Below are positions 15,742 to 63,376 of a stretch of DNA of 64,000 bases, one piece after another. The stretch is from Sphingopyxis lindanitolerans. Its GTDB lineage: Bacteria; Pseudomonadota; Alphaproteobacteria; Sphingomonadales; Sphingomonadaceae. The notes under the pieces are model-generated. The model was not told the DNA's origin. It saw only the letters and a list, made by a program, of their open reading frames with translations, and searched no databases. The position numbers were made by a program, and so were the translations under genes. Location: the NCBI RefSeq assembly GCF_002993885.1, contig NZ_CM009578.1, positions 3,308,009 through 3,372,008 of the forward strand, read 5' to 3'. Every line of letters starts with the position of its first letter. Position 1 is the first letter of the stretch.

Positions 15742-16065
15742 TCACTTGGCCTTCGGTTTCGCCGCAGGCTTCGGTGCGGCCTTCGCAGCAGGCTTGGCGG
15801 CCGCCTTCGGCGTCGCCGCCGGCTTGGCTGCGCCTTCGAGCTTGTCGAGCCGCGCCTTCAGCGCGTCGGCTTCGGCGCGCGCCTTGGCGGCCATTTGCTT
15901 CACCGCCTCGAATTCCTCGCGGCTGACGAAGTCCATGCGGCCGATCCATTCCTTGGCGCGCTCGCGCATCGCGCTCTCGGCCTCGCGGCCGGCGCCTGCG
16001 ACGGTTCCGGCGACGCCGTTCACCATCTTCGCCAGATCGTCGAAAAAGCGGTTTTCGCTCTGCAT
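15742..16065 (-). CDS. ubiK: Accessory factor UbiK family protein (BMFP domain)
   Basis: This is a 107-residue protein. The first ~80 residues match the BMFP/UbiK pattern (NRFFDDLAKMVNGVAG, then VSREEFEAVKQMAAKAR, a coiled coil). They are followed by a low-complexity Ala-Lys-Pro tail (AAKPAAKAAPKPAAKPKAK). UbiK family members trimerise and help the UbiJ-containing ubiquinone biosynthesis complex in proteobacteria; fusogenic membrane binding has also been reported. AAGGA lies 9 bp before the ATG at 16065. The tspO gene lies 36 bp upstream on the same strand. Confidence 0.8.
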   Translation of the reverse strand: MQSENRFFDDLAKMVNGVAGTVAGAGREAESAMRERAKEWIGRMDFVSREEFEAVKQMAAKARAEADALKARLDKLEGAAKPAATPKAAAKPAAKAAPKPAAKPKAK

Positions 16066-44701: not shown

Positions 44702-44774
44702 GCGTGAACGCCCCGATCCCCGCGCGCGAAAATCCAGCCGCCGCGCTGGCGGGCCATTTCAATCCGGAGCTTAT

Positions 44775-45536: not shown

Positions 45537-45554
45537 GGCTGGTGACCTGGCGAG

Positions 45555-45594
45555 TTGACGGGCGAGCGTATATACGATACAAAATGTTTCATAA
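45555..45594 (+). promoter_or_regulatory. Promoter and island-A operator, site 3 (FAH operon)
   Basis: TTGACG (45555-45560), 17 bp, TACAAA forms a plausible promoter. ATACG-N13-CATAA at 45572-45594 overlaps the -10. The inner ATACAAAATGTTT is close to site 1. An AGGAGAGGATATT ribosome-binding region follows before the ATG of the FAH gene. Confidence 0.65.
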
Positions 45595-45609
45595 ATAGGA
45601 GAGGATATT

Positions 45610-46461: not shown

Positions 46462-47492
46462 AGGTCGCCCGCATATCTCCCGAACGCGCGATCGAAGTCG
46501 CGCAGATTCCCGAGCCGGTCACCGTCCCCGGCACGGTCAAGGTGCGCGTCGAGCGCTGCGGCATCTGCGGCACCGATCTGGTCGCGCGGACGAGCCCCAA
46601 TCCCCGCTGGGCGGTGGGCAGCGTGCTGGGGCATGAAATCGTCGGCACCGTCGCCGAGGTGGGCGAGGGCGTCGCCGGCTGGGCCGCGGGCGACCGCGTC
46701 GCGCTCTATCATGGCAGCCCGTGCGGCCGGTGCGAGATGTGCACCAGCGGGCGCGACTATCTCTGCCTCGACCATCTCGATTCGGCGCTTGGCCATGGCG
46801 TCGCGCAAGGCGGTTATGCCGAACATATCGTCGTCAGCCCGGCGCTGCTGCATCATATCCCCGATGCTTTGAGTTTCGACCAGGCCGGGATCACCGAACC
46901 GCTCGCCATCGCCTTTCACGGGGTCAACAAGTCGAGCGCGAAGCCCGGCGATGCGGTGTGCATATTGGGCGCGGGGCCGATCGGCGCGATGACCGCGGCG
47001 GCGCTCAAGGCGCGGGATATCACCGATGTCATTTTTATCGATCCCAACCCCGCCCGGCGCGCGCTGATGGCAAAATCGGGCTATCGCGCCGTCGATCTTG
47101 CGGCGGTCCAGGCCGATGGCGCAGCGGCGCTCGGTGAACGGCGCCCCACCGCGATCTTCGAATGTACCGGCCATGTCGAGGCTGCCGGGCTGGCGGTCGA
47201 ACTCATTGCGTACAACGGCCGAATCGTCTTGCAGGGCGTGCCCAAGGCCCCCGTCCAGATCTCGCAATATTCGGTGGTGCAGAAGGAGGTCGAGATCGTC
47301 GGCTCGGCAAGCTGCACGCAGGAGGAAATGGAGGAAGCGATCGGCCATCTTGCCGCTGGGCGCGTGCGCGCCGAGGATATCGTCACCGCCGTCGTCCCGC
47401 TCGAGCGGGCCGACGCGATGTTCGATGCCCTGCTCGACCCCGCCGGCGATCAGCTCAAGGTGCTGATCGCCCCGAACATGCCGGCAAATTGA
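46458..47492 (+). CDS. Zinc-dependent alcohol dehydrogenase (MDR family)
   Basis: This is a 344-residue medium-chain dehydrogenase. The catalytic-zinc region is RCGICGTDLVARTSP near residue 31 and GHEIVGTVAEVGEG near 57. The four structural-zinc cysteines are in SPCGRCEMCTSGRDYLC near 88, and the cofactor loop is ILGAGPIGAMTAAALKA near 172. It resembles threonine/sorbitol-type dehydrogenases; the substrate is likely a secondary alcohol. It is coupled to the FAH gene, with the VOC gene 11 bp downstream. Confidence 0.9.
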   Translation: MKVARISPERAIEVAQIPEPVTVPGTVKVRVERCGICGTDLVARTSPNPRWAVGSVLGHEIVGTVAEVGEGVAGWAAGDRVALYHGSPCGRCEMCTSGRDYLCLDHLDSALGHGVAQGGYAEHIVVSPALLHHIPDALSFDQAGITEPLAIAFHGVNKSSAKPGDAVCILGAGPIGAMTAAALKARDITDVIFIDPNPARRALMAKSGYRAVDLAAVQADGAAALGERRPTAIFECTGHVEAAGLAVELIAYNGRIVLQGVPKAPVQISQYSVVQKEVEIVGSASCTQEEMEEAIGHLAAGRVRAEDIVTAVVPLERADAMFDALLDPAGDQLKVLIAPNMPAN

Positions 47493-47503
47493 GGAGACGA
47501 GCG

Positions 47504-47986
47504 ATGGGTATTGCCGAACTGGGTCACACCGGCCTGCACGTCGAAGACCTTGACGTGATGCGCGATTTCTATGCCCGCGTGCTGGGGCTGACGGTGACCG
47601 ACGAGGCGCCCGAACTCGGCGCGAGCTTCCTGTCGTCGCGCCCCGATGTCGAGCATCACGAGATCGTGCTCGCCAAGGGGCGCACCGCGCCGCGCGACGT
47701 GAAGCTGATCAACCAGATTTCGTGGCGCGTCGACGACCTGCCGTCGCTCCAGTCGCTCTATCGGGCGATTTTGGACTATGGGTCGCCGATCCGCATGGTG
47801 ATCACCCACGGCAATGCGATCGGCGTCTATTTCTCCGACCCCGAAGGCAATCCGAACGAAATCTACTGGCAGACCGGCATCGATGTGCCGCAACCCTTCG
47901 GCAAGCCGATCGATCTGACTCTGACCCCCGAGGAGGTCGTCGCCGAAAATGAGCGGCTGATCGCCGCCGACGGCCCGGCGCATTAA
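47504..47986 (+). CDS. VOC family (glyoxalase/extradiol dioxygenase-like) protein
   Basis: This is a 160-residue protein with two beta-alpha-beta-beta-beta units: GHTGLHVEDLDVMRDFYARVLG, SSRPDVEHHEIVLAKG, then SWRVDDLPSLQ and VYFSDPEGNPNEIYWQTG. The residues GHTGL, HHEIVL and EIYW could supply a 2-His-1-Glu metal site, as in small extradiol dioxygenases. It is too short to be a two-domain type I extradiol enzyme. It lies between the alcohol dehydrogenase and transporter genes, so a ring-opening or isomerase step is possible. Confidence 0.8.
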   Translation: MGIAELGHTGLHVEDLDVMRDFYARVLGLTVTDEAPELGASFLSSRPDVEHHEIVLAKGRTAPRDVKLINQISWRVDDLPSLQSLYRAILDYGSPIRMVITHGNAIGVYFSDPEGNPNEIYWQTGIDVPQPFGKPIDLTLTPEEVVAENERLIAADGPAH

Positions 47987-47996
47987 GGGCAAAGCC

Positions 47997-49379
47997 ATGG
48001 CTGCCGTCGCCCCGACCGGAACCTTCGATGCGCCCGCGGGAAAGCTGCCCGCCTCGGCGCGTGCCTGGGCGCTCTATGAGGGCGGGCGCATGCCCTATGT
48101 GCTGCTGATCAAAGTCTATATCTTCATCCCCTATCTCGCGACCGTTCTCGTGGGCGATCCGGTGGCGGGGCAGAGCCTCGTCGCCAAATTGGGGATGGGC
48201 TATGGGCTGCTCGCGGCGCTGACCGCGCCGTTGCTTGGCGCGGCGATGGATCGCATCGGGCCCAGAAAGCCGTTGCTCGGCGCGATGACCGCGGTGCTGA
48301 TCGCCTGCTGCGCCAGCCTTTGGTGGGCGACGCCCGATGGCCTTGGCCTGGCCGCCACCTGCGCGATCATCTTCGTCGCCGGCCTGATGTTCGCCTATAC
48401 CGAGGTGCTGCACAACTCGCTCCTGCCCTTCGCCGCACCGCGCGCGCAGACATCGGCGACATCGGGGTTGGGGCTGGCGCTGGGCAGCGCGATTTCGGTC
48501 CTTCTCCTCGCCTTCATCCTGTGGGGTTTCGCTTTGCCCGCCAAGATGACGGCGGCGTGGCTGCCCGCGGCGCCCTTGTTCGGCCTGTCCGCCGCTGCGC
48601 ACGAGCCCGAACGGATCGTCGGCCCGATCACGGGCTTCATCTTCGCCTGCGGGGCGCTGCCGCTCTTCCTTGTCGGACGCGATGCGCCGCGTGGGATCGG
48701 CGGCGGCGTCGGCGACAGCTTCCGGCAGCTCAAGGCGACGATCAGGACGCTGCCTTCCCATCAGCCGATGGCGGTGTTCCTGCTGTCGCGCATGACCTAC
48801 ACCGACGGGCTGACGGCGATCCTCCTCTACACCGGCATCTATGCCGCCGGGGTGATGGGGTGGGGGGCGCTCGAACTCACGATGCTGGCCATTCTCGTCA
48901 GCTGTTTTCTCGCGGTCGGCGGCCTGGTGGGCGCCCGCCTCGATCGCGCCTTCGGTCCGCGCCGCGCGATCCAGGTCGAACTGGCGATCGTCATTGCCGG
49001 GCAGATGCTGCTGATCGGTCTCGCCCCCGACCGCCTCTTCTACTTGCCTTATGCGGCGGAGCCGCTTTGGAACGGCCCGATGTTCACAACCCTGCCCGAG
49101 ATCGCGTTCGTCGCGGTCGCCTGCTTCAACGCGATCGGCACCTGCGGCTGTTATGCGTCGAGCCGCTCGATGCTGACCTCGCTCGCCACCCCCGAAACGG
49201 TTGGGAGCTGGTTCGGCCTCTATGCCCTCTCGGGCAGCGTGACGATTTGGCTTGGGTCGGCCTTGGTCGGTGCGGTCACCGCCATCTGGTCAAGCCAGCA
49301 AGCGGGCTTTGCGGCCCTGATCGCGCTCTTGATCGCCGGGGCCATCGGCATGGCATTTGTGAAAGAACCCGCTCGGTGA
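47997..49379 (+). CDS. MFS transporter, UMF1/Atg22-like
   Basis: This is a 460-residue polytopic protein with about 12 membrane segments. The MFS loop motif is in GAAMDRIGPRKPLLGA near residue 85, and a long central loop separates two halves (GGGVGDSFRQLKATIRTLPS near 240). The general shape (LLSRMTYTDGLTAILLYTGIYAAGVMGW) matches the UMF1/Atg22-like branch. It ends island A 10 bp after the VOC gene. The direction and substrate are unknown; uptake of the catabolic substrate or export of an intermediate would fit. Confidence 0.8.
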   Translation: MAAVAPTGTFDAPAGKLPASARAWALYEGGRMPYVLLIKVYIFIPYLATVLVGDPVAGQSLVAKLGMGYGLLAALTAPLLGAAMDRIGPRKPLLGAMTAVLIACCASLWWATPDGLGLAATCAIIFVAGLMFAYTEVLHNSLLPFAAPRAQTSATSGLGLALGSAISVLLLAFILWGFALPAKMTAAWLPAAPLFGLSAAAHEPERIVGPITGFIFACGALPLFLVGRDAPRGIGGGVGDSFRQLKATIRTLPSHQPMAVFLLSRMTYTDGLTAILLYTGIYAAGVMGWGALELTMLAILVSCFLAVGGLVGARLDRAFGPRRAIQVELAIVIAGQMLLIGLAPDRLFYLPYAAEPLWNGPMFTTLPEIAFVAVACFNAIGTCGCYASSRSMLTSLATPETVGSWFGLYALSGSVTIWLGSALVGAVTAIWSSQQAGFAALIALLIAGAIGMAFVKEPAR

Positions 49380-49838: not shown

Positions 49839-49864
49839 CGTAATATTTTGATATTCATATTACG
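49839..49864. promoter_or_regulatory. Island-B operator, site A (before SDR)
   Basis: CGTA-N18-TACG. The wider inverted repeat is GCGTAATAT / ATATTACGT, 27 bp before the GTG start of the SDR gene. The same CGTA-N18-TACG layout recurs at 55515, 55700, 58765 and 60899. Confidence 0.72.
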
Positions 49865-49890
49865 TGAATGATATTCAACGGAGATATTTT

Positions 49891-50631
49891 GTGCGATTCG
49901 CGAATAAGTCTGCGCTGGTGACCGGCGCGGCGTCGGGAATCGGGCGCGCGACCGCGCTGCGCCTCGCGGCCGAGGGCGCGCGCGTTGCCGCCGCCGATGT
50001 CGACACCGACGGGCTTCGCGAGACGCTGGCGCTGGCGGCGGGGGACATGCGAACGATCCGCTATGACGCGGCCGATCTGGCAAGCGTCCGCGCCCTGGTC
50101 GCCGACGCGGCGGCGGACGGGCTCGATATTCTGTGCAACATTGCGGGGCTGCTCGACTGGGGGCCGACGCTCGATTTCGACGAGGCGCGTTTCGAACGGC
50201 TGATCGCGGTCAATCTGACCAGCGTCTATGCGCTGTGCCGCGCCGCGCTGCCGCATCTGGTCGCCAGCCGGGGAACGATCGTCAACATGGCCTCGACCGC
50301 CGGGGTGCAGGGGACGCCCTATGCGATCGGCTATGCCGCGTCGAAACATGGCGTCGTCGGCCTGACCAAAAGCCTGGCGGTCGAATTCGCCGGGCGCGGG
50401 GTGCGGATCAACGCGGTCTGTCCGGGGCAGGTCGATACGCCGATGACCCGTCGCCCGCCGCCCGAGGGCGATATCGATTGGGCGCTGATGATGCGCAACG
50501 CGCCCAAGCTGGCGGACGGCGTCTGCGCGCCCGAGGACGTGGCCGAGATGGTGGCCTTTCTCGCAAGCGATCAGGCGCGCAAGATCACCGGCGCCCTGTT
50601 CACGGTCGATGGAGGGCAATTGGCCGGTTGA
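49891..50631 (+). CDS. Short-chain dehydrogenase/reductase, island B copy 1
   Basis: This is a 246-residue SDR: ALVTGAASGIGRATALRL at residue 7, CNIAGLLDWG, the catalytic Ser in VNMASTAG, and Tyr-Lys in GYAASKHGVVGLTKSLA. It starts with GTG at 49891, six bases after GGAGA. A longer GTG start at 49864 would fall inside operator site A. It is convergent with the aldolase gene, whose stop is 28 bp beyond its own. Because it shares the island-B operator it probably oxidises an alcohol in the upper part of that pathway. Confidence 0.9.
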   Translation: MRFANKSALVTGAASGIGRATALRLAAEGARVAAADVDTDGLRETLALAAGDMRTIRYDAADLASVRALVADAAADGLDILCNIAGLLDWGPTLDFDEARFERLIAVNLTSVYALCRAALPHLVASRGTIVNMASTAGVQGTPYAIGYAASKHGVVGLTKSLAVEFAGRGVRINAVCPGQVDTPMTRRPPPEGDIDWALMMRNAPKLADGVCAPEDVAEMVAFLASDQARKITGALFTVDGGQLAG

Positions 50632-50659
50632 CGCCGCGGGCGATGCAGCGACGCCTGTG

Positions 50660-51697
50660 TCACCCGCGCGCCTTCACCATGTCGAGCGCGACATCGACGA
50701 TCATGTCCTCCTGGCCGCCGACCATCTTGCGGCGGCCGAGTTCGACGAGGATCGTCCGCGTATCGAGGCCATAGGTTTCGGCGGCCTTTTCGGCGTGGCG
50801 CAGGAAGGAGGAATAGACGCCGGCATAGCCGAGCGCGAGTGTTTCGCGATCGACGCGCACCGGGCGGTCCTGAAGCGGACGCACCAGATCCTCGGCGGCG
50901 TCCATCAGCGCGTTGACGTCGCAGCCATGGTTCCAGCCCTTGCGGTCGGCGGCGGCGATGAACACTTCGAGCGGGGCGTTGCCCGCGCCCGCGCCCATGC
51001 CGGTCAGCGAAGCGTCGATGCGCACCGCGCCTTCCTGCGCCGCGACGATGCTGTTCGCGACGCCGAGCGACAGATTATGATGCGCGTGGATGCCGCGCTG
51101 CGTCCCGGGCTTCAGCACCCGGTCGTAAGCGCGCAGCCGGTCGCGGACCCCGTCCATGTCGAGCGCGCCGCCGCTGTCGGTGACATAGACGCATTGGGCG
51201 CCATAGCTTTCCATGAGGAGAGCTTGGCTCGCGAGCGCCTCGGCGTCGATCATGTGGCTCATCATCAAAAAGCCCGCGACGTCCATGCCGAGGTCGCGCG
51301 CGATGCCGATATGCTGCTTCGAGACGTCGGCCTCGGTGCAGTGCGTCGCGACGCGCACCGAACGGACGCCAAGGTCATAGGCGCGGCGCAGTTCGTCGGC
51401 GGTGCCGACGCCCGGCAGGATCAGCGTCGTCAGTACCGATCGGGTCAGCACCGCGGCGACCGCCTCCAGCCACTCCCAGTCGGTGTGCGCGCCGAAGCCA
51501 TAGTTGAAGCTCCCGCCATTGAGGCCGTCGCCGTGCGCGACCTCGATCGCATCGACGCCGGCTTCGTCGAGCGCCCTGGCGATCGCCTGCACATGGTCGA
51601 TGCCATATTGGTGGCGGATCGCGTGCATCCCGTCGCGCAGCGTGACGTCCTGAATATAGAGCTTTTCGCCGGCCTCGACGCTGAACTTCCCGCTCAT
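50660..51697 (-). CDS. 4-Hydroxy-2-oxovalerate aldolase (HsaF/BphI/MhpE type)
   Basis: This is a 345-residue DRE-TIM metallolyase. The catalytic pair Arg-Asp is in [14 protein letters not shown] near residue 20, and the metal histidines are in [15 protein letters not shown] near 200. It splits 4-hydroxy-2-oxo acids into pyruvate and an aldehyde, normally channelled to the partner acylating dehydrogenase, whose gene overlaps it by four bases (ATGA). It is the final gene of the island-B meta-cleavage operon. Confidence 0.94.
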
Positions 51698-52638
51698 GCG
51701 CTCACCTTCTTTCCGTCGCGGATCCGCTCGGCGAGCAGCTCGCCGGTCGCCTTGGCCGCCGCCGTCATGATGTCGAGATTGCCCGCATAGGGCGGCAGGT
51801 AATCGCCCGCGCCCTCGACCTCGAGCAGGATCATCGTCTTGATGCCCGTAAATTCGCCGCGGCCGGGAATCCTGATCCTGTTGTTGTCGCCAAAGCGTTC
51901 GAACTGCACGTCCTGTTTCAACCGATAGCCGGGGACATAGGTCTGCACCTTCTTGACCATCGCCTCGACCGAGGCCCGGATCGTCGCCTCGTCGGCGCCT
52001 TCGGACAAGGTGAAGACGGTGTCGCGCATGATCATCGGCGGCTCGGCGGGGTTGAGGATGATGATCGCCTTGCCCTGCGCCGCGCCGCCGACCTTTTCGA
52101 TCGCGCCGGCGGTGGTGCGGGTGAATTCGTCGATATTGGCGCGGGTGCCGGGGCCGGCGGAGCGCGACGACACCGACGCGACGATCTCGGCATAGTGGAC
52201 GGTCGCGACCTGGCTTACCGCGGCGACCATCGGGATCGTCGCCTGGCCGCCGCAGGTCACCATATTGACGTTGCCGGCGTCCAGATGATCCTCGCCGTTG
52301 ACGGTCGGGACCGTATAGGGGCCGATCGCGGCGGGGGTCAGGTCGACGACCTGTTTGCCGTCGGCGCGCAGCGCGGCGTCGTGCACCTTGTGCGCATAGG
52401 CCGAGGTCGCGTCGAAGACGATGCCGATCTCGGGATAGACGGCCATCGCCCGGAGCCCGTCCAGCCCTTCGTGCGTCGTCGCGATGCCGCGCTCGCGCGC
52501 CATGGCAAGGCCCTCGGACTGCGCATCGATGCCGACGACCGCCACCAGTTCCATATTTTGCGGATATTTGATCATCTTGATCATCAGGTCGGTGCCGATA
52601 TTGCCCGATCCGATGATCGCTGCCTTCACGCGGGTCAT
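51694..52638 (-). CDS. Acetaldehyde dehydrogenase (acylating), HsaG/BphJ/MhpF type
   Basis: This is a 314-residue NAD-dependent enzyme: [18 protein letters not shown] at residue 5 (Rossmann), the catalytic Cys in [13 protein letters not shown] near 129, and [17 protein letters not shown] near 160. It turns acetaldehyde or propanal from the aldolase into the acyl-CoA. The tight coupling with the aldolase mirrors the channelling complex known for this pair. Confidence 0.95.
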
Positions 52639-52647
52639 TGTCGTTCC

Positions 52648-53436
52648 TTAAACGAAGCGCGCGGCGCACCGGCCGAGCGTGCGGCGGCCGTCGCCGAGGA
52701 TCATTTCGAAGCTGTCGCCCTTCACCGCGGGCGCCAGCGGGACGAGGCTGCCCGACAGGATGATGTCGCCCGCATCGAGCGTGACCCCGTGCGCGCCGAG
52801 CGTGTTGGCGAGCCAGGCGACCGCCTGCGCGGGGTCGCCCTGCACCGCATGACCGTGGCCTTCGGACAGCGGCGCGCCATTCTTCGTCACCGCGACATGC
52901 AAATTGGGCAGGTCGAGCCCGCGCGGATCGAGCCGCGCCGCACCGAGTACGAAGACCCCGCACGAGGCATTGTCGGCGATCGTATCGACGATGCCGATCT
53001 TCCAGTCGTCGATGCGGCTGTCGACGATCTCGAAACAGGGGGCGACCGCGTCGGTCGCCTCGACGACGTCGGCGGCGGTGACGCCGGGGCCTTTGAGCGG
53101 CGCCTTCAGGATGAAGGCGATCTCGGCCTCGGCGCGCGGCGCGATCAGCGCCTTGGCATCGATGTCGATGTCGCCCTCGACCTGCATCCAGTCGGTCAGA
53201 AAGCCAAAGTCGGGCTGATGCACGCCCAGCATCTCCTGCACCGCTTTCGATGTGACGCCGATCTTCTTGCCGACGACGCGCTCGCCCTCCGCCGTGCGCC
53301 GCGCGAGGAAATCGAGGCTGATCGCATAGGCGTCGTCGACCGTCAGCGCCGGATCGCGCGTGCTGAGCGGCGCCAGTGTGCGGCGTTCGCGCAGCGCCGC
53401 GAACAGTTCGGCGCCATGGGCTTCAACCGCGGGCAT
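52648..53436 (-). CDS. 2-Oxopent-4-enoate (2-hydroxydienoate) hydratase, HsaE/BphH/MhpD type
   Basis: This is a 262-residue FAH-superfamily hydratase: [18 protein letters not shown] near residue 60, [21 protein letters not shown] near 104 (metal ligands), and [14 protein letters not shown] near 232. It hydrates the five- or six-carbon dienoate released by C-C bond hydrolysis to the aldolase substrate. The ATG at 53436 is chosen, overlapping the hydrolase stop by 14 bp. A longer start would put more than 80 bp inside the hydrolase gene. Confidence 0.93.
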
Positions 53437-54244
53437 CGAGGAAGGCGATCGAATAGAGGTTGAACTCGGCGGCGCGTTCGACCTGCACCCAATGGCCGGT
53501 GCGGGCAAAGGTCATGCAGCGCGCATCGGCGCAGCGGTCGAGGAAATGGCGCGCGCCGCTTTCGGGGCAGAATTCGTCGTCGAGCCCCCACAGGACGAAG
53601 ACCGGCTGAGCGATCCGCCCGACCTCGGGGCCAAGATTGGGGGTCTTCATCCGCGCCAGCACATCCTTGGGCTGGGTGCGCGCGACCGCGAACCGTTCGG
53701 CGACGAGCGCTTCGGGAATATGCGGCGCGAAATCGGGATGGACGAGGTTAGCAATCAGCCGCCGCTGCTCGTCGAGGTTGAAATCGGGGCCGCCGAAACC
53801 CGACACCATCTTGGCGATGCCCGGCATGGTGAAATAGCTGGCCTGCTCCTCGACGCAGCCGGGCGCCATCAGGACGAGCGCGGCGGTGAATTCGGGATGG
53901 TCGAGCGTCATCTGGATCGCGACGCCGCCGCCCAGCGAATTGCCGACCAGCGCGGCGCGCTCGATGCCATGCTCGCGCAGCGCGCCATATAGCGTGTCGG
54001 TGAACAATTGCAGCGTATAGTCGATCCCTTCGGGCTTCGACGATGCGCCATAACCGATCAGGTCGGGCAGGATGACGCGATAGCCCGCGGCGACGAAGGC
54101 GTCGATATTGTCGCGGAAATTCGACGCGCCCGACGCGCCGGGGCCGCTGCCGTGGATAAAGACCACGGGCTTGCCCGCGCCCTTTTCCTTGATGTGGATG
54201 TCATGGCCGCCGACCCGATAGCTGTTTTCGGTGAAACCCGTCAT
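53423..54244 (-). CDS. Meta-cleavage product hydrolase (alpha/beta hydrolase), HsaD/BphD type
   Basis: This is a 273-residue alpha/beta hydrolase of the MCP-hydrolase family. The oxyanion motif is IHGSGPGASGASNF near residue 31, the nucleophile is in LVGNSLGGGVAIQ (Ser near 106), Asp is in LWGLDDEFCP and His in TGHWVQVERAAEF. It cleaves the C-C bond of the ring-fission product. It lies between the flavin monooxygenase and hydratase genes, in the same order as in other seco-steroid and biphenyl-type operons. Confidence 0.93.
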   Translation of the reverse strand: MTGFTENSYRVGGHDIHIKEKGAGKPVVFIHGSGPGASGASNFRDNIDAFVAAGYRVILPDLIGYGASSKPEGIDYTLQLFTDTLYGALREHGIERAALVGNSLGGGVAIQMTLDHPEFTAALVLMAPGCVEEQASYFTMPGIAKMVSGFGGPDFNLDEQRRLIANLVHPDFAPHIPEALVAERFAVARTQPKDVLARMKTPNLGPEVGRIAQPVFVLWGLDDEFCPESGARHFLDRCADARCMTFARTGHWVQVERAAEFNLYSIAFLDARG

Positions 54245-54256
54245 GGCGCTGCTCCG

Positions 54257-55471
54257 TCAAAGGAAGGTGAAGGCCGGGGGCTGGCCGATCATGGTGCCGA
54301 CGACATCGGCGGTGCGGTTGTTCGGATCGTTCGCGACATGCGCCCGCGCGGCGTTGAGGTCGAGCCACGGCTGGATGATGTCGCTGGACATATAGATGGC
54401 GCGCCCGCCGAGCAGTTGCACCATGTCGTCGACCAGCCGCGCGAGGCGGCGCACGACGGTCGACGATTGATAGGCGAACAGCGCCCGCGTTTCCATCGGG
54501 ACCGGCTCGCCGCGCTCGGCCAGGCGCATCAGTTCGTCGAAGCTCGCCTCCAGCGTCCGCTCCATTTCCAGCGTCTGCGCGTGGGCGGCGGCGATCGCGG
54601 CGTGGAGGATCGGGTCGCCCTTCGACGCCTTGCCGGTGTTGGTCGACACGCGGCTCTTCATGATCTCCATCGCGGCGTTGATCGCCGCGCGCGCGCCGCC
54701 GAATGCCGCGGTCGAGACCGAGCGGACGAACACTTGCGCCCAGGGGAGGGTGTAAAGCGGGCCGTCATTGACCCGCTGGCCGGGATTGTCGCACAAAAAG
54801 CCCTCGACCGCGCGATGGGTGCGATATTCGGGGACGAAAACCCGGTCGACGATGATGTCGTGGCTGCCCGTGCCCTGAAGGCCGAACACCTGCCAGCTAT
54901 CGGGGTCGATGCGGTAGTCGCTGCGCGGCAAAAGGAAGGTCCGCATGTCGGGGGCTTCGCCTTCGGCCTTCGGCGGCACCACCGCGCCGAGCAGCACCCA
55001 GCCGCAATGGAGCGATCCCGACGAAAATCCCCAATGGCCGCTGAGGTAGAAGCCGCCGTCGGCATGTTCGACCTTGCCCACCGGCTGATAGGTGGAGGAG
55101 ACGAGCATCGTCTGGTCGTCGGTCCACACCTCGGCCTGCGCCTGGTCGTCGAACAGCGCGAGTTCATAGGGATGGCAGCCGAGCACGCCGTAAACCCAGC
55201 CCGTCGACATGCAGCCTTCGGCGAGCGCCCTTTGCACCGCGAAAAAGACATTGGGGTGCATTTCATAGCCGCCCCAGCGCCGGGGCTGAAGGATGCGGAA
55301 AAATCCGGCGTCCCGCATCTCGGCGATCGTTTCGGCGGGTATGTTGCGGTCGGCCACGCAGCGGCGCGCCCGGTCCTTGAGCACCGGAATCATCGCCTTC
55401 GCTCGCGCCACCAAATCGTCTACCGATGGGGCCGGGCCGTTCTGCTGCGCTGCGGGCGCCAATGTAGCCAT
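54257..55471 (-). CDS. Flavin-dependent phenol hydroxylase, oxygenase component (HsaA-like, group D)
   Basis: This is a 404-residue protein with the acyl-CoA dehydrogenase fold adapted to monooxygenation. Stretches such as RDAGFFRILQPRRWGGYE, STGWVYGVLGCHPYELALFD, LSGHWGFSSGSLHCGWVLLG and FGLQGTGSHDIIVDRVFVP parallel mycobacterial HsaA from memory. It lacks the acyl-CoA dehydrogenase C-terminal signature. It would hydroxylate a phenol ortho to the OH to give a catechol, using reduced FMN from the reductase at 59896. It is first gene of the operon, with operator site B 44 bp upstream. Confidence 0.88.
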   Translation of the reverse strand: MATLAPAAQQNGPAPSVDDLVARAKAMIPVLKDRARRCVADRNIPAETIAEMRDAGFFRILQPRRWGGYEMHPNVFFAVQRALAEGCMSTGWVYGVLGCHPYELALFDDQAQAEVWTDDQTMLVSSTYQPVGKVEHADGGFYLSGHWGFSSGSLHCGWVLLGAVVPPKAEGEAPDMRTFLLPRSDYRIDPDSWQVFGLQGTGSHDIIVDRVFVPEYRTHRAVEGFLCDNPGQRVNDGPLYTLPWAQVFVRSVSTAAFGGARAAINAAMEIMKSRVSTNTGKASKGDPILHAAIAAAHAQTLEMERTLEASFDELMRLAERGEPVPMETRALFAYQSSTVVRRLARLVDDMVQLLGGRAIYMSSDIIQPWLDLNAARAHVANDPNNRTADVVGTMIGQPPAFTFL

Positions 55472-55514
55472 AATCCGTCTCCAGTCGCTCTTCCGCCCAA
55501 TGACGGATTAAATT

Positions 55515-55540
55515 CGTAGAAAATTCTTCCATAAAATACG
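55515..55540. promoter_or_regulatory. Island-B operator, site B (HsaA operon)
   Basis: CGTA-N18-TACG with flanks ATT and CAAAT, upstream of the hydroxylase on the minus strand. The 395-bp gap between the two divergent operons (55472-55866) holds sites B and C. The stretch between them (about 55560-55680) has a GC-rich inverted repeat but no gene. Confidence 0.7.
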
Positions 55541-55699
55541 CAAATCGTCAATGATATTTGATGATCATCTGCAAATTGGCATCCGATCGCGCTTTTCCGC
55601 GGCGGCGGTGGGGACGCCGCCCGGCGTTCCCGACGGCTCGCAAAGCGCGAAGCCGCGCCCAACCGATCCGGGATTAGAAAATCAAAAATCATCGAAATT

Positions 55700-55725
55700 C
55701 GTAAAGAAATATCATAAATAATACG
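55700..55725. promoter_or_regulatory. Island-B operator, site C (dioxygenase operon)
   Basis: CGTA-N18-TACG inside a very A/T-rich stretch (about 55670-55770) of the divergent region. It lies 141 bp before the extradiol dioxygenase start. Confidence 0.7.
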
Positions 55726-55866
55726 CATATTGGCGTAAAAAATGCAATTTATCTTGCAAATATGATTCGCCTTTGGCTTAATGACCGGCGATTCATGTGT
55801 TGAACGTAAAGGGAATGGCTTTGGGCGTGACGGATTCTCTGGATCTGGTGAAGGGGGGCTGAGGCG

Positions 55867-56780
55867 GTGGCTATCAGGGCACTCGGTTATGTCGTGATCG
55901 CGACGACGAAGATGGACGAATGGGATCGCTATCTGACCGAAACGGTCGGGGTGATGCGCGCCGACGATCCGGGCGACGGCGCGGCGCATTATCGCATCGA
56001 CGACCGTCCGTTCCGCTTTCGCATCGAGCCGGGGCCGCGCGACGAGCTGCTCGCCGCGGCCTATGAACTGTCCGATGCCGCGGCGTTCGAGCGGCTGAAA
56101 CAGGCGATCGCGGCGGCGGGGCGCGCGGTCGAGGACGGCAGCGCCGCCGATGCCGCGACGCGCGGGGTGCGCGCCTTTTTCCGGACCAGCGATCCCGCCG
56201 GCAACGGGCTGGAATTTTATCACGGCGACAGCCGCGATGCGGTCGCGTTCGTCTCGCCCGCCGGGGTCAAGGCTTTCGTGACGGGCGACATGGGGATGGG
56301 GCATGCGGTTTTCGCCGCGCCCGGTTTCGACGAGGTTCATGCCTTTTACACCGATGTCGTCGGCTTTCACGACACCGACATCCCGCGCTTCCATTTCTCG
56401 CCCGACCCCGCCGATCCGGGCATGGGCTTCGCCTTCATGCACGCCGACAACGGCCGCCACCATTCGATCGCCATCGGCCAGGGCGAGGTGCCGCCGTCGC
56501 GCTGCATCCACCTGATGCTCGAGATGCAGGATCTCGCCGACGTCGGCCGCTGCCACGACCGGATGCGCCGCGCCGGGATCGAGGAATCGGCGACGCTGGG
56601 CATGCACGTCAACGACCAGATGACCAGCTTCTACATGCGGACGCCGGCGGGCTTCGACCTCGAGATCGGGTGCGACCCGCTGGTGATCGATCCCGCGACC
56701 TGGGTGCCGACGGCGCACCAGCAGATCAGCGAATGGGGGCATGTCTGGACCTGGCAGAAGGCGATGACGGAGGATGCGGC

Positions 56781-56784
<4 letters not shown>
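55867..56784 (+). CDS. Extradiol catechol dioxygenase (HsaC/BphC type I)
   Basis: This is a 305-residue two-domain extradiol enzyme. The C-terminal domain supplies the iron ligands: His in GDMGMGHAVF near residue 145, His in NGRHHSIAIGQG near 198, and Glu in AGFDLEIGCDP near 263. The stretch ATLGMHVNDQMTSFYMRTP strongly recalls mycobacterial HsaC. It opens the catechol ring next to the hydroxyls, giving the substrate for the hydrolase at 53423. It starts with GTG after a GGGGGGCTGAGG stretch. The acyl-CoA dehydrogenase gene overlaps by four bases. Confidence 0.93.
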
Positions 56785-57959
<1,175 letters not shown>

Positions 57960-57990
57960 GCAAGTGGCCCGGCTCTTATATGTCGGGCGG

Positions 57991-58761
57991 TCAGCTGACC
58001 GTCGCGCCGCCGTCGATGACCAGCGGATGGCCGGTCACGAAGCTGGCCTGAACGCTGCACAGCCACAGCACCGCGCCCGCCACCTCGTCGGGCTGGCCCA
58101 TGCGGCCCATCGGGGTCAGCGCCTCCATCGCCCGGCGCAGGTCGGGATTGCGGGCGACCGCGTCGGTCATCGGCGTTTCGATCACGCCGGGGCAGACGGC
58201 GTTGACGCGGATATTGTCCCGCGCCCATTTGAGTGCGCCGTGGCGGGTCAGCCCGATGACGCCATGCTTCGTCGCGACATAGGCGGGCTGGCGGGCATTG
58301 CCGGTAAAGCCGTTGATCGACGCGGTGTTGACGATCGCGCCGCCGCCATGGTCCAGCATCGCCGCGGCTTCTTCGCGCATGCAGTGCATCACGCCGTCGA
58401 GGTTGATCGCCAGCGAGCGCCGCCAGACCTCGTCATCCCATTCGTCGGCGGTCAAATTGGTGATGCCGGCATTATTGTGACCAAAGTCGAGGCGCCCGAA
58501 ATGGCCGACGGCGCGCGCGACCAGCGCCTTGACCGCGGCGGGGTCGGCGACATCGCAGGGGTGGAAGATCGCGGTGCCCCCCGCGGCGGCGGCGAGCGCG
58601 ACCGTCTCCTCGCCGCCGGCCGCGTTGACGTCGCTGACGACGACCGAGGCCCCCGCGCGGGCAAAGGCGAGCGCGGTGGCGCGGCCGATGCCGCCGCTGG
58701 CGCCGGTGACCAGCGCCACTTTTCCGGAAAAATCATAGGAGACGGTCAAATTTACCTCCAT
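57991..58761 (-). CDS. Short-chain dehydrogenase/reductase, island B copy 2
   Basis: This is a 256-residue SDR: ALVTGASGGIGRATALAFAR near residue 15, HNNAGITN, the catalytic Ser in VNTASINGFTG, and Tyr-Lys in AYVATKHGVIGLT, ending VIDGGATVS. It is divergent from the Old Yellow Enzyme gene, with operator site D between them. It is related to, but not a close duplicate of, the SDR at 49891. A hydroxysteroid-type dehydrogenase role is possible from context only. Confidence 0.9.
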   Translation of the reverse strand: MEVNLTVSYDFSGKVALVTGASGGIGRATALAFARAGASVVVSDVNAAGGEETVALAAAAGGTAIFHPCDVADPAAVKALVARAVGHFGRLDFGHNNAGITNLTADEWDDEVWRRSLAINLDGVMHCMREEAAAMLDHGGGAIVNTASINGFTGNARQPAYVATKHGVIGLTRHGALKWARDNIRVNAVCPGVIETPMTDAVARNPDLRRAMEALTPMGRMGQPDEVAGAVLWLCSVQASFVTGHPLVIDGGATVS

Positions 58762-58764
58762 TTG

Positions 58765-58790
58765 CGTAGATATTATGTGTATATATAACG
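58765..58790. promoter_or_regulatory. Island-B operator, site D (SDR/OYE divergent region)
   Basis: CGTA-N18-AACG with flanks ATTTG and CAAAT. It has one mismatch in the core but the longest flanking symmetry. It starts 3 bp before the SDR start codon and 39 bp before the OYE start. Confidence 0.72.
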
Positions 58791-58828
58791 CAAATCGAAA
58801 AACTTATAGCGCAAAGATGGATTATCGC

Positions 58829-59887
58829 ATGACCGCATCGCTTTTTGAACCCCGCACGCTGGGCGCGATTTCGCTGTCCAACGCTATCGTCATGGCGCCG
58901 ATGACGCGCGACCGCGCCGGTCCGGGGGACGTGCCGGGCGATCTGATGGTCGAATATTACCGCCAGCGCGCGTCGGCGGGGCTGATCGTCACCGAAGGCG
59001 TTCAGCCGAGCGCCGATGGCAAGGGATATTGGCGCACGCCGGGGATATGGTCGGCCGGTCAGATCGCCGGCTGGCGGCGCGTCGCCGCTGCCGTCCACCG
59101 CGAAAGCGGCCGCATCGTCATGCAGTTGATGCATTGCGGCCGCGTCTGCGTCCGCGCGAACAAGCAGGACGACAGCCGGACCGTCGCGCCATCGGCGATT
59201 CCCTGCATCGATCCGGTGCCCGGTCCCGACGGCGTCCCGGTCGCGACCGAAATGCCCGAGGCGTTGACGCGCGGCGAGGTCCGGCAGGTGATCGGCGACT
59301 ATGCGGTGGCCGCCGCCAATGCGCGCGATGCCGGGTTCGACGGAGTCGAGCTGCATTGCGCGAGCGGCTATCTTCCCAACCAGTTCCTCAATCCGAACAG
59401 CAACCGGCGCGACGACGATTATGGCGGTTCCCCCGAAAATCGCATCCGGTTCGCCATCGAAGCGCTCGGCGCGATGGCCGACGCGATCGGCGCCGGCCGG
59501 GTGGGCTTTCGTATCTCGCCCGGCAATCCCTATAACGACATGGCCGACGACGATCCCGCCGCGACCTTCATCCCCTTGCTTGGCGCGGCCGACCGGTTGG
59601 GGCTTGCCTATGTCCATCTCGTCGATGTCGCGGGCAGCCTCGACTGGGTGCGCGCGCATTGGTCGGGCAATCTGATCGCCAACAACGGGCTGAAGCCCGC
59701 CAGTGCGGCGGCGCTGCTCGATGATGGGCGGGCGCAGGCGGTTTCCTTTGGCCGTCCGTTCATCAGCAATCCCGATCTTGTCGAAAGGCTGCGCCGCGGC
59801 GCCGATCTCGCGCGGGTCGATCGCGACCATATCTATACCGGCGAGGCGAAGGGCTATATCGATTATCCGGCGCTGACCGCGCGCTGA
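58829..59887 (+). CDS. Old Yellow Enzyme family NADH:flavin oxidoreductase
   Basis: This is a ~352-residue FMN TIM barrel: LFEPRTLGAISLSNAIVMAP at the N-terminus, QLMHCGRVCVRANK near residue 95, and the signature FLNPNSNRRDDDYGGSPENR near 185, then VSFGRPFISNPDLVERL. It reduces activated C=C bonds of enones. The ATG at 58829 has GGA 7 bp upstream; ATG 58817 is possible. In island B it may reduce an unsaturated ring ketone or diene acid. It is convergent with the flavin reductase gene (8-bp gap). Confidence 0.92.
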   Translation: MTASLFEPRTLGAISLSNAIVMAPMTRDRAGPGDVPGDLMVEYYRQRASAGLIVTEGVQPSADGKGYWRTPGIWSAGQIAGWRRVAAAVHRESGRIVMQLMHCGRVCVRANKQDDSRTVAPSAIPCIDPVPGPDGVPVATEMPEALTRGEVRQVIGDYAVAAANARDAGFDGVELHCASGYLPNQFLNPNSNRRDDDYGGSPENRIRFAIEALGAMADAIGAGRVGFRISPGNPYNDMADDDPAATFIPLLGAADRLGLAYVHLVDVAGSLDWVRAHWSGNLIANNGLKPASAAALLDDGRAQAVSFGRPFISNPDLVERLRRGADLARVDRDHIYTGEAKGYIDYPALTAR

Positions 59888-59895
59888 CCCGCGCG

Positions 59896-60846
59896 TCAGC
59901 CGCGCCAGCCGATCGGCACGTCGGCGCCGGTCAACTCGATGATCCGCCGCAGCACCGCCTTGGTTTCGGCCAGTTCGGCGGCGGTGAAATGATCGGCAAG
60001 GTCGGCCTCGAACGCCTGACCGATCGCCAGCGTTTCGACCAGCCGCTCGCGCCCGGCCTCGGTCAGTTCCCACCCTTCGCCGCCCTCGACCAGCAGGCCT
60101 TTCGCGACCATGGCCGCCAGCGCCGCCGCGTCGGGGGCGTGGCCGGTATGCGCAAGGCGGGCGGCGATCGCGTCCGCGGCGAGCGGCCTGTCCATGCTGA
60201 GCAGCGCGAGGGTCAGATATTGGCCCATGTCCATGCCGAATCGCGCCAGCTTGTCGCGCGTCGGCCGCGAGGTCTGGAAATGCGCGCGCGAGATCAGATA
60301 GAAGAGAAAATCGTCGGTGAAGCGGCCATGTTCGATATCCACCGATGGTTCGGATGCGCCGGGGCGGGGGCGTCGCTCGGCGTATCGACCGCCGTGGAAC
60401 AGCAGCGGCGCGACATCGCGCGCGTCGTGCGCGATGACTTCGCCGACCAGAATGACGTGATCGCCGCCTTCATATTGGTGGCGCGTGCGGCATTCGAACA
60501 GCGCCGCATAATCGCCGAGGACCGGCGAACCGAGCGCGCCGCCGCGCCAGTCGACCCCGGCGAATTTATCGCCGCCGCGCCGGGCGAAATCGTTCGACAG
60601 CCCTTCTTGCGTAGCGGCGAGGACGTGGATCGCGAAATGACCGCTTTCGGCAAACGCGCTGCGTGAATAAGAGCTTTTGGCGAGCGACCAGAGGACGAGC
60701 GGCGGGTCGATGCTGACTGAATTGAAGCTGTTTGCGGTGACGCCGACGGGCTCGCCGGACTCTCCGATGGTGGTCGCGATCGTCACGCCGGTCGCAAAGG
60801 TGCCAAGGGCATCCCGGAACGCCCGCTGCGCATCATTGCCTGCCAT
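59896..60846 (-). CDS. Flavin reductase with C-terminal MarR-like domain (HPAH C1-type)
   Basis: This is a 316-residue protein in two parts. Residues ~1-165 are a flavin reductase domain (FATGVTIATTIGESGEPVGVTANSFNSVS, HFAIHVLAA, HVILVGEV). Residues ~185-310 look like a MarR-type winged helix (MGQYLTLALLSMDRPL, GWELTEAGRERLVETL, FTAAELAETKAVLRRI). The same architecture and length occur in the C1 reductase of Acinetobacter p-hydroxyphenylacetate hydroxylase, where the extra domain senses the phenolic substrate and controls flavin reduction. It presumably supplies reduced flavin to the oxygenase at 54257. DNA binding by the MarR-like part is an alternative. Confidence 0.85.
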   Translation of the reverse strand: MAGNDAQRAFRDALGTFATGVTIATTIGESGEPVGVTANSFNSVSIDPPLVLWSLAKSSYSRSAFAESGHFAIHVLAATQEGLSNDFARRGGDKFAGVDWRGGALGSPVLGDYAALFECRTRHQYEGGDHVILVGEVIAHDARDVAPLLFHGGRYAERRPRPGASEPSVDIEHGRFTDDFLFYLISRAHFQTSRPTRDKLARFGMDMGQYLTLALLSMDRPLAADAIAARLAHTGHAPDAAALAAMVAKGLLVEGGEGWELTEAGRERLVETLAIGQAFEADLADHFTAAELAETKAVLRRIIELTGADVPIGWRG

Positions 60847-60898
60847 TCGTGTCCCTCTCTGAATAATAGATATGATAGGCTATTTCATGCCATGAATG

Positions 60899-60924
60899 CG
60901 TAGAATTTCAAAATGAAATTTACG
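60899..60924. promoter_or_regulatory. Island-B operator, site E (flavin reductase promoter)
   Basis: CGTA-N18-TACG. It is the most symmetric copy: the spacer itself contains GAATTTC and GAAATT as inverted halves. It is 52 bp upstream of the reductase start. Confidence 0.75.
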
Positions 60925-61018: not shown

Positions 61019-63376
61019 CTAGAAGCGCATGGTCGCCGAAACCCCGTAGGTGCGCGGTTCGTTCGCCAGGACGCGATTGGCGGTGCTGCCGGGGAAGGCC
61101 CCATTGTTGAGGCCAAGCGCGGCGCCGAGCGGCTGATAGACCGCGAGCGGGCGATAATGGGTGTTGGTGAGGTTGCTGCCGAAGATCGCCAGCGACCAGC
61201 GATCGTCGGGCCCCTTGAGCGTCAACCGTGCCCCGAGCAGCGCATAGCCGTCGGCGATCGATTGCGGATTGGCGTCGTTGACCGTGCCGACATATTGGTC
61301 GGACACGAACGAGACATTGGCGTTCGCTGCCCACGTCAGCCCGCTCGATCCGATATCGCCGTTCCAGTCGACCGCGACATTGCCCGACCAGGCGGGCGAG
61401 AAGCTGTTCGGCTTGCCGGTCAGATCCTGCGTCCCGCCGATACCCGGCAAGCCCGAGGCGTTGGCGAAATCGGTGAATTCGGAATCGAGATAGGCGAGCG
61501 AGCCCGAAAGCGCGAAGCGATTGGTCGGTGCGAGTCTCAGGTCGAGCTCCATGCCTTGCTGGCGAAGGTTGCCGGCGTTGCGGACGACGAAGCTGACCCC
61601 GTCGAACGCGCGATCCTGAAAGCCCGCGATGTCCATGCGAAAGAAGGTGATGTTCGCGGTCAGCGCGCGATCGAGCCAGCTCGATTTCGCGCCGAACTCG
61701 TAATTCTTGACCGTCTCGCGGTTGAACACGCGCCGGGTCGAGATCAGATTGCCCTGGGGGTCGAAGGTCGAAAGCGCCGGCACCCCGCCGCCCGAATTAT
61801 AGCCGCCCGACTTGTAACCCGTCGAATGGTTGACGAAGAGCATCACATCGTCCGTCGGCTTGTAGTTGAGGCTGATGCGATAGGTGAAGCGGCTTTCGGA
61901 GAGGCCGGGATAGTCGAGCACCTCGGGCGCGCGGATCGTCTGGGTGAAGGGGCTCGATATCTGCGAGTAGCTGCCCCTCTTGCGATCGTTGGTCCAGCGC
62001 CCGCCGAGCGTCAGCGTCAGCGCGTCGCCGATATAGATATTGCCCTGCGCATAGGCGGCGATGCTGCGGACTTTCTGGAACACGTCCTGATCGGTTGCCG
62101 CGACGCCGCCGGTGCTGGCGTAATAGGCGGCGCAGGCGGCGCGCCCCGGCCCCGCGGGGACGAGGACGTTGCAAAACTGCGAGTCCATGTTGAGCTGTTC
62201 GCCGAGCGCGAACTTCTCCTGGAAATAATAGACGCCCGCCACCATGTCGAAATGGCCGCCCAGCCATTCGCGCTCGGGTGAGATGAATTGCAGCTCGTGG
62301 TTCCAGCTTCCCGAATCGAACAGGCTGCGCCGTGTCGCGAGCGGGACGGGGAGGAAGATGATGTCGCCGTCGAGCTGGTCGTTGGTCCATTTGCGATAGC
62401 TGTTGACCAGGCGCAGCGTCGATCCGCCGCCGATCTCGAGCGAGGCGGTGCTCGATACCCCCCAATTCTTGTCGAGCAGGCCCGAGGCGACCGATTGGTT
62501 CATCACCCGGTCGTTCAAATTGATGTCGGGGCCGCCGCTGAACGCCGCTTGCAGGAAGGCAAGGCGGGCGGGGGCGATCGAGGCGGGGTCGAAATCGAAA
62601 TTGACGACGCCGTCGCCATCGAGGCGGGTGTAATCGCCGCGCACGATCCATTCGAGATTGCCGAACTCGGCTTTCACCGTGCCGCGCACCGCGACGTCGT
62701 CGGACCCGCCATAGGTCTTGCCATCGTAGCGGTTCTTCCACGGGCCGTCATACCATTGCCCCATCGCGGCGACGCGCGCCGCGACGTTCTGCCCCAGCGG
62801 GATATTGACATGGCCCGACAGCTTGTAGCGGTCGAACGACCCCGCTTCGGCCGACACTTCGCCCGAAAATTCATCCTTGGGCAGCGCGCTGCGGATCGAC
62901 AGCGCGCCGACGCTGGCGTTGCGGCCGAACAAGGTTCCCTGCGGCCCGCGCAGCACCTCGACCCCGTCGATATCAAGAAATGCGCCGAGGATCGAGCCCG
63001 AGCGCGGGACATAAACACCGTCGACGAACACCGCGACGCTCGGCTCGATCAGCGTGTTGGCGAGGCTGCCGACGCCGCGGATGCCGATGCGCGTCGAGCC
63101 GGTGTTCGACGAACGCACGGTCTGGAAATTGGTCGCGACGCGGCCGAGGTCCATCACGGTGAGGATGTTCGCGCTCTCCATCGTCTCGCCGCTGACCGCC
63201 GCGATCGAGATCGGCACGTCCTGGATATTCTCGGCCCGCTTTTGCGCGGTGACGACGATTGCGTCGCCCATGTCGCTGCTGGCGGCGTCGGCGGGCGTCG
63301 CCTCCTGCGCCGCGGCGGGCGCGGCCGCGAGCGCGACGGCGAAAGCGGCAAGGCTGGTGTAGGTAATGCTCTTCAT
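61019..63376 (-). CDS. TonB-dependent receptor, catabolic island B
   Basis: This is a 785-residue outer-membrane receptor with a signal peptide (TSLAAFAVALAAAPAAAQ), a plug starting DAIVVTAQKRAENIQDVPIS with VLRGPQGTLFGRNASVGALS, and a barrel ending GVSATMRF. It belongs to the same sphingomonad subfamily as the receptor at 40907. Its upstream region shows no CGTA-N18-TACG site, so it may be controlled separately. Uptake of the island-B substrate is inferred from position. Confidence 0.9.
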   Translation of the reverse strand: MKSITYTSLAAFAVALAAAPAAAQEATPADAASSDMGDAIVVTAQKRAENIQDVPISIAAVSGETMESANILTVMDLGRVATNFQTVRSSNTGSTRIGIRGVGSLANTLIEPSVAVFVDGVYVPRSGSILGAFLDIDGVEVLRGPQGTLFGRNASVGALSIRSALPKDEFSGEVSAEAGSFDRYKLSGHVNIPLGQNVAARVAAMGQWYDGPWKNRYDGKTYGGSDDVAVRGTVKAEFGNLEWIVRGDYTRLDGDGVVNFDFDPASIAPARLAFLQAAFSGGPDINLNDRVMNQSVASGLLDKNWGVSSTASLEIGGGSTLRLVNSYRKWTNDQLDGDIIFLPVPLATRRSLFDSGSWNHELQFISPEREWLGGHFDMVAGVYYFQEKFALGEQLNMDSQFCNVLVPAGPGRAACAAYYASTGGVAATDQDVFQKVRSIAAYAQGNIYIGDALTLTLGGRWTNDRKRGSYSQISSPFTQTIRAPEVLDYPGLSESRFTYRISLNYKPTDDVMLFVNHSTGYKSGGYNSGGGVPALSTFDPQGNLISTRRVFNRETVKNYEFGAKSSWLDRALTANITFFRMDIAGFQDRAFDGVSFVVRNAGNLRQQGMELDLRLAPTNRFALSGSLAYLDSEFTDFANASGLPGIGGTQDLTGKPNSFSPAWSGNVAVDWNGDIGSSGLTWAANANVSFVSDQYVGTVNDANPQSIADGYALLGARLTLKGPDDRWSLAIFGSNLTNTHYRPLAVYQPLGAALGLNNGAFPGSTANRVLANEPRTYGVSATMRF

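Follow-up and report, generated by a model that had tools for sequence, protein, structure and literature searches.

Within a 64,000-nucleotide stretch of the Sphingopyxis lindanitolerans chromosome (G000:C1:3308009-3372008, genome 4.37 Mb; referred to here as the window and numbered from its first base), an inverted repeat of the form CGTA-N18-TACG recurs in front of a set of catabolic genes. The original prediction had singled out five such sites and had interpreted them as the shared operator of one catabolic regulon. Inspection of the sequence bore out each of the five positions: four sites (49839, 55515, 55700, and 60899) are exact copies, the site at 58765 ends in AACG, and all interiors are A/T-rich. 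We represented the operator by a sequence model (R1) trained on 23 sites (46 rows, both strands), namely all nine sites of this genome and 14 sites from relatives, so that the recovery of these particular sites is by construction. The sites in the window, with their R1 scores, and the putative −35 element associated with the second of them are:

49839 to 49864, no strand assigned: operator 1, CGTA-N18-TACG, upstream of an SDR (short-chain dehydrogenase/reductase) gene; 16.4 bits
55515 to 55540, no strand assigned: operator 2, exact, in the promoter of the hsaA operon and kept upstream of hsaA orthologs; 24.2 bits
55546 to 55551, minus strand: TTGACG, putative −35 box of the hsaA promoter, 5 bp outside the CGTA of operator 2
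55700 to 55725, no strand assigned: operator 3, exact, on the hsaC operon side of the divergent region; 23.7 bits
58765 to 58790, no strand assigned: operator 4, CGTA-N18-AACG, between the divergent SDR and OYE (old yellow enzyme)-like genes; 20.9 bits
60899 to 60924, no strand assigned: operator 5, exact, upstream of the gene for an HsaB-like flavin reductase; 19.7 bits

The gene map places these sites upstream of an SDR gene, the hsaA operon, the hsaC operon, the SDR/OYE pair and the flavin reductase gene, as had been proposed:

49864 to 50631, plus strand: SDR (adh_short_C2, 2e-58); the GTG start is uncertain and the gene may begin near 49892
50660 to 51697, minus strand: HsaF-like 4-hydroxy-2-oxovalerate aldolase (HMGL-like and DmpG_comm)
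51694 to 52638, minus strand: HsaG-like acetaldehyde dehydrogenase (AcetDehyd-dimer)
52648 to 53433, minus strand: HsaE-like hydratase (FAA_hydrolase, 5.2e-11; operon position)
53423 to 54244, minus strand: HsaD-like meta-cleavage hydrolase (Abhydrolase_1; operon position)
54257 to 55471, minus strand: HsaA-like flavin monooxygenase, first gene of the operon (best NCBIfam match HsaA, 353.6 bits, below the cut-off of 450)
55867 to 56784, plus strand: HsaC-like extradiol dioxygenase (BphC_D1; biphenyl-diol dioxygenase 256.9 bits and HsaC 243 bits, both below cut-off)
56781 to 57959, plus strand: acyl-CoA dehydrogenase (domain match)
57991 to 58761, minus strand: SDR (domain match)
58829 to 59887, plus strand: OYE-like flavin oxidoreductase (Oxidored_FMN)
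59896 to 60846, minus strand: HsaB-like flavin reductase with a C-terminal extension (Flavin_Reduct; best NCBIfam match p-hydroxyphenylacetate hydroxylase reductase, 218.6 bits, below cut-off)

The HsaF-, HsaG-, HsaE-, HsaD-, and HsaA-like genes form a single operon on the minus strand, while the HsaC-like gene and the acyl-CoA dehydrogenase gene are read from the plus strand. Pfam and NCBIfam matches thus recover an HsaA-D-E-G-F operon together with HsaC and HsaB; since HsaA, HsaC, and HsaB score below their NCBIfam cut-offs, these names rest on family matches and on gene order. The A-D-E-G-F order is retained in six related genomes (G050, G033, G168, G161, G057, and G107). By its predicted gene content, the region from 50660 to 60846 covers rings A and B in the 9,10-seco steroid pathway, and this HsaA-G-like gene set permits the regulon to be named as one for degradation of the steroid nucleus.

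A chance origin of the sites was assessed with 300 simulated sequences of like dinucleotide make-up. The exact pattern was found four times in the window against a simulated mean of 0.18, and four times against an expectation of 0.003 when at least 11 of the 18 interior bases had to be A or T; an extended 36-mer with up to three mismatches likewise gave four places, with 0.00 expected, the site at 55700 lying beyond this limit. Across the entire genome, the 36-mer search returned five places, four of them in the window and the fifth at 1205515. The looser pattern without mismatches returned 11 places, eight of which are A/T-rich and lie in two steroid clusters (four in the window, four at 1193842-1205520), while the three elsewhere have 6, 8, and 9 A/T among their 18 interior bases. 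At E ≤ 0.5, model R1 reports nine sites (18 matches, both strands), all within these two clusters, which are 2.15 Mb apart. Five copies was therefore an undercount, because four more accompany the second cluster; the possibility that the pattern is equally frequent at random sites is not borne out genome-wide.

The second cluster codes for a KstD-like protein, SDRs, an OYE-like protein, an AMP-binding enzyme, an amidase, a TonB receptor, two Rieske proteins of KshA type, and two Lrp/AsnC-type regulators whose genes stand in tandem. Its steroid character is indicated by the presence of KshA (KshA_C, 3.6e-58) and of a KstD-like protein (best NCBIfam match 496.8 bits, below the cut-off of 789). 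Gene maps of this cluster and of the relatives were made with a simple open reading frame scorer that misses some genes, for example a solo LRP2 gene in G133:C11. The two regulator genes are:

G000:C1:1203128-1203604: LRP1, Lrp/AsnC family, second cluster
G000:C1, about 1203602-1204092: LRP2, Lrp/AsnC family, second cluster, beside a KshA-like gene

The operator is conserved among relatives in sequence, spacing, and position. Orthologs of HsaA (at least 68% identity) occur in 20 of 199 genomes of the family, and a further eight genomes have only paralogs of 37-44% identity at the threshold used. A set of 30 HsaA loci contains 19 exact copies with N18 (interior at least 60% A/T), as against zero or one at each other spacing from 8 to 30. 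In the best 80 of 242 LRP2 homolog loci, the corresponding count is 108 (at least 50% A/T) against zero to four, and a set of 24 LRP2 loci has 15 copies with N18 against zero or one at 17 other spacings. Single spacer variants were seen before hsaA of G057 (N19) and before the second hsaA of G071 (N17). At least one exact site (45% A/T) is present in 64 of the 80 LRP2 loci, and in 32 of the 80 an operator lies within 300 bp downstream of LRP2. Although 84% of the bases are coding, 138 of 140 mapped sites are intergenic, and 126 of the 140 have a start codon within 350 bp. From 147 non-redundant sites we derived the half-site consensus (T/A)T(A/T)TGCGTA(A/G), with half-sites 22 bp apart, so that the earlier remark on a separation of about two helical turns stands; no covariation between the half-sites was seen in these 147 sites.

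At E ≤ 0.1, the operator model finds sites in 18 of the 20 HsaA-ortholog genomes and in one of the 179 others (19 of the 20 at E ≤ 0.5). The single case among the 179 is G109, with one place on both strands; that genome has 1070 first-look candidates, and the match appears to be a chance one. A set of 20 HsaA-negative genomes gave no model match at E ≤ 0.5. The operator also precedes hsaA on pNL2 of Novosphingobium aromaticivorans, on Mpl of Novosphingobium PP1Y, and on pMSHV of S. herbicidovorans; on the last of these, a single gene separates the hsa operon from an Lrp/AsnC pair downstream. Pairs of this kind are present in N. aromaticivorans DSM 12444 (SARO_RS18945/18940) and in S. herbicidovorans MH (B6S01_RS14560/14565). 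Retention before hsaA orthologs, which the original prediction had named as a test, was thus observed. The strict N18 spacing, the intergenic position, the association with steroid genes, and the conservation across genera strongly support the notion that a common operator marks a single catabolic regulon: judged from sequence comparison, CGTA-N18-TACG is a genuine operator, conserved and belonging to a steroid regulon of sphingomonads.

The original prediction saw no DNA-binding regulator in this part of the window and left the controlling protein open. The former holds for the window genes named above; the latter no longer does, since the Lrp/AsnC pair of the second cluster is a candidate. 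Both proteins match PF13404 (HTH_AsnC-type) and PF01037 (AsnC_trans_reg) above cut-off, and their genes overlap (TGATG), which suggests a mixed complex. The CGTA of an operator begins at the third base past the LRP2 stop codon, upstream of KshA, and an operator stands between pair and KshA in G000, G050, and G033. Homologs of LRP2 (type I or II, E ≤ 1e-30) occur in all 20 HsaA-ortholog genomes and in none of the 179 others (Fisher 7e-28, a value that is overstated because it treats related genomes as independent). LRP2 was the sole query in these co-occurrence searches; the 12 of the 20 genomes that were mapped (G000, G011, G033, G050, G057, G084, G107, G133, G139, G161, G168, and G174) have the tandem partner as well. 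At this threshold, 15 of the 199 genomes have type I LRP2 and 13 have type II, a divergent form with 30-32% identity to type I; in G056 both matches are the same gene. G057, G161, G168, G174, and G139 have no type I match at this threshold but have a tandem type II pair. Tandem type II pairs were seen in G168, G057, G161, G174, G107, and G139, and in all but G139 they lie within about 5-8 kb of hsaA. The LRP2 recognition-helix residues E-G-T-x-R-x-R-x-K/R-R-L are retained in 19 of 19 aligned proteins, two of type II among them.

In G033, one 40-kb stretch holds the hsa operon, the dioxygenase gene, KshA, KstD, and the pair; apart from the pair, no helix-turn-helix (HTH) protein was found among its called genes, and none of the ten otherwise unlabelled genes has an HTH domain. 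Neither a TetR-type protein among the mapped genes nor a LuxR-type (TeiR/TesR-like) regulator among those named or scanned was seen in this stretch, the other clusters having been scanned for the latter in part. Operators also lie upstream of the LRP pairs in G011 and G133:C21, where each spot is upstream of a divergent gene as well. Solo LRP2 genes, located off the steroid cluster and near a gene for GTP cyclohydrolase I (Pfam in G189), were seen in G189, G061, and G133 (L107, L108, and L109); in these three genomes an exact CGTA-N18-TACG separates the solo gene from a divergent gene (XRE-type), an arrangement in which self-regulation away from the steroid cluster is possible. A second Lrp gene region of S. 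lindanitolerans (C1:1761552-1762132, two HTH matches) has another neighborhood and no operator in the 16 kb around it. Asymmetry of the half-sites, a conceivable sign of mixed binding, was not significant (T before CGTA in both halves of 2 of 147 sites, 5.1 expected, P = 0.11). On the evidence of sequence and distribution, the Lrp/AsnC pair is a strong candidate and the one candidate regulator we found with homologs in all 20 HsaA-ortholog genomes examined.

The position of promoter elements relative to the operator gives hints to the mode of action. In 19 of 24 rows of hsaA promoters, TTGAC(G/A) starts exactly 11 nucleotides before CGTA, as it also does before the N19 variant of G057; with a 17-bp spacing this puts the −10 region inside the operator, where TANNNT boxes were seen by eye in some rows only. 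A TTGACA-like box coincides with the operator center in 25 of 157 promoter readings, compared with a mean of 1.3 per offset (some of these loci are near-duplicates), and to this class belong promoters of TonB-receptor genes in G050 and in the second cluster. An operator that contains the −10 region or covers the −35 box would have the layout expected of a repressor. We consider it probable that CGTA-N18-TACG is the operator of a sphingomonad steroid-nucleus regulon to which the Lrp/AsnC pair binds, most likely as a repressor that is relieved by a steroid or a steroid-CoA intermediate. The recognition helices of LRP1 and LRP2 would read the two inverted (T/A)T(A/T)TGCGTA half-sites, 22 bp apart and facing one side of the DNA, with the A/T-rich middle probably bent. 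At hsaA, the bound complex would cover the −10 region behind the TTGAC(G/A) −35 box, and at the TonB-receptor promoters just named it would cover the −35 box itself. A steroid or steroid-CoA intermediate would then relieve repression and jointly induce uptake, the opening of the ring system by KstD/KshA, and the degradation of rings A and B by HsaA-G.

The closest known regulators differ from this arrangement. KstR and KstR2 of mycobacteria, TetR-type proteins whose regulon covers hsa genes, differ from the sphingomonad system in family, operator, and phylum. To the family of the pair belong E. coli Lrp and AsnC and the archaeal proteins PH1519 and PH0140, and solved relatives by sequence include 7fby, 9w4v, 1ri7, 2gqq, and 2cg4; in contrast to these, the genes studied here form a tandem pair tied to steroid genes, and the half-sites are 22 bp apart. 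In the sphingomonad Caenibius tardaugens, the TetR-type EdcR is described, in the accessible part of the report, as the local repressor of the estrogen pathway (edc cluster), acting at a palindrome that overlaps the −10 region (PMC8700777). Its operator TnnCnnTACnAnTnGTAnnGnnA has TAC before GTA at short spacing (PMC8700777), unlike CGTA-N18-TACG, and the consensus from our 147 sites differs from it in order and spacing. The LuxR-type TeiR/TesR of Comamonas testosteroni, according to the available sections of another paper, controls the testosterone degradation gene clusters (PMC6895838) and belongs to a different protein family than the Lrp/AsnC pair. The same sections state that the testosterone (SD) cluster of N. 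tardaugens has no TeiR homologue and no putative regulator nearby, and suggest that the cluster is either not specifically regulated or regulated in another way (PMC6895838). Two contiguous Lrp/AsnC genes (NCHOL11_RS15865/RS15860) are mentioned in the bile-salt cluster of Sphingobium sp. Chol11, with a guessed role in amino acid metabolism; they are like LRP1/LRP2 by description, and the part of that article available contains neither an operator nor an experiment on them (PMC12882949). The main texts of PMC12239570 and PMC4810484 do not contain the words Lrp or AsnC. We recognized no like operator in the open-access literature searched, subscription papers being outside its scope, so that "undescribed" holds to this extent, and an Lrp/AsnC pair of this kind, with one mention without function in the accessible portions of that literature, seems otherwise unstudied.

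Several observations weigh against binding and repression by the pair, and they bear on different alternatives. At E ≤ 0.1 the operator model misses two HsaA-ortholog genomes (G057 and G084), 16 of the 80 LRP2 loci have no exact site, and sites are few or degenerate around the LRP pairs of N. aromaticivorans (L130) and Sphingobium TomTYG46 (L131). When one mismatch is allowed in the bare eight-base pattern, the window is not enriched (7 found, 8.71 expected), which is why our analysis rests on the exact pattern, its A/T-rich form, and the extended 36-mer. Such a chance frequency, and the A/T-rich and palindromic character of the sites, might point to a nucleoid or topology protein or to mere coincidence; this explanation is already refuted by the strict N18 spacing, the intergenic location, the confinement of the own-genome copies to steroid loci, and their absence from the 20 HsaA-negative genomes, and we give it practically no weight. 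More specific is the case of an XRE/Cro-type regulator (HTH_31, weak DUF4423 match), present at E ≤ 1e-15 in 14 of the 20 HsaA-ortholog genomes and in one of the 179 others. It is encoded divergently from solo LRP2 across an operator in G189 and G061, convergently with LRP2 in G011, and within the steroid cluster of G050 (G050:C2:181752-182408), another example being L107:487-1248. It is absent at this threshold from G000, G033, G116, G135, G056, and G161, all of which have operator sites at E ≤ 0.1 (nine in G000); we therefore rejected it as the general binder and regard it as a very improbable one.

The operator might also be bound by some other protein coded elsewhere, of TetR, LuxR, or another type, with the Lrp pair acting at a different site in the same clusters. 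The known steroid regulators are of TetR (EdcR, KstR) or LuxR (TeiR/TesR) type, no operator was found beside type II pairs where these were mapped, and the half-site spacing is long for this family: typical Lrp sites are palindromes of about 15 bp, which counts against a typical Lrp site and not against family membership. Moreover, KshA could itself be the target, which makes the adjacency of pair and operator there weaker evidence, co-occurrence would follow from one shared pathway cluster as well, and the 80 loci, chosen by LRP2, have no power on the question of who binds. Such a protein would, however, have to occur in every HsaA genome with the operator and yet be coded outside the G033 stretch, and the operator also precedes LRP genes that lie off the steroid cluster; we consider this explanation improbable. 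Somewhat less so, though still unlikely, is that the same pair acts at the same operator as an activator, with a steroid ligand promoting its action. Members of the Lrp/AsnC family can activate, −10 boxes within the hsaA operators are poor in many rows by eye, and in a third promoter class (16 readings) TTGACA stands at +20, which sets the operator near −55, a position that activators occupy as well. This class would suit activation or might serve the divergent gene. Promoters of this class repeatedly have a further AATTGCG, resembling a half-site, downstream of the operator (L036, about 15804-15812, and similar promoters). Against activation stand the −35 position at hsaA, with its −10 region inside the operator, and the excess of TTGACA-like boxes at the operator center, so that repression with steroid-derived induction is what we favor as most likely, by a moderate margin.

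Some features of the window lie outside this argument. The flavin reductase (59896-60846) aligns with PDB 5zc2, a p-hydroxyphenylacetate hydroxylase reductase, over residues 7-300; in the part that corresponds to the C-terminal extension, 5zc2 has a MarR-like domain. We rejected this extension as the DNA binder because the flavin reductase of the G033 cluster has only 164 residues, yet G033 keeps the operator; the extension may put the enzyme under ligand control. The TonB receptor gene at 61019-63376 has no operator. Just upstream of the regulon, genes at 43928-49379 (SDR, fumarylacetoacetate hydrolase-type hydrolase, alcohol dehydrogenase, glyoxalase, and major facilitator superfamily transporter) are also without one and, for this reason, probably belong to a separate regulon.

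Tentatively, and with rather more doubt than we attach to binding and repression by the pair, we envisage LRP1 and LRP2 as an obligate mixed complex that would bridge two inverted half-sites two turns apart and wrap the A/T-rich middle. It might be the first Lrp/AsnC steroid sensor, and at the same time the pathway-specific regulator that the testosterone cluster of sphingomonads was believed to lack. In soil and water, sphingomonads break down hormones and bile acids; a named operator, a list of its regulon, and a candidate regulator pair make the question of who controls the N. tardaugens testosterone cluster a testable one. Operator and pair also provide a signature by which steroid degraders may be recognized from their genomes, and could yield a new part for steroid biosensors.

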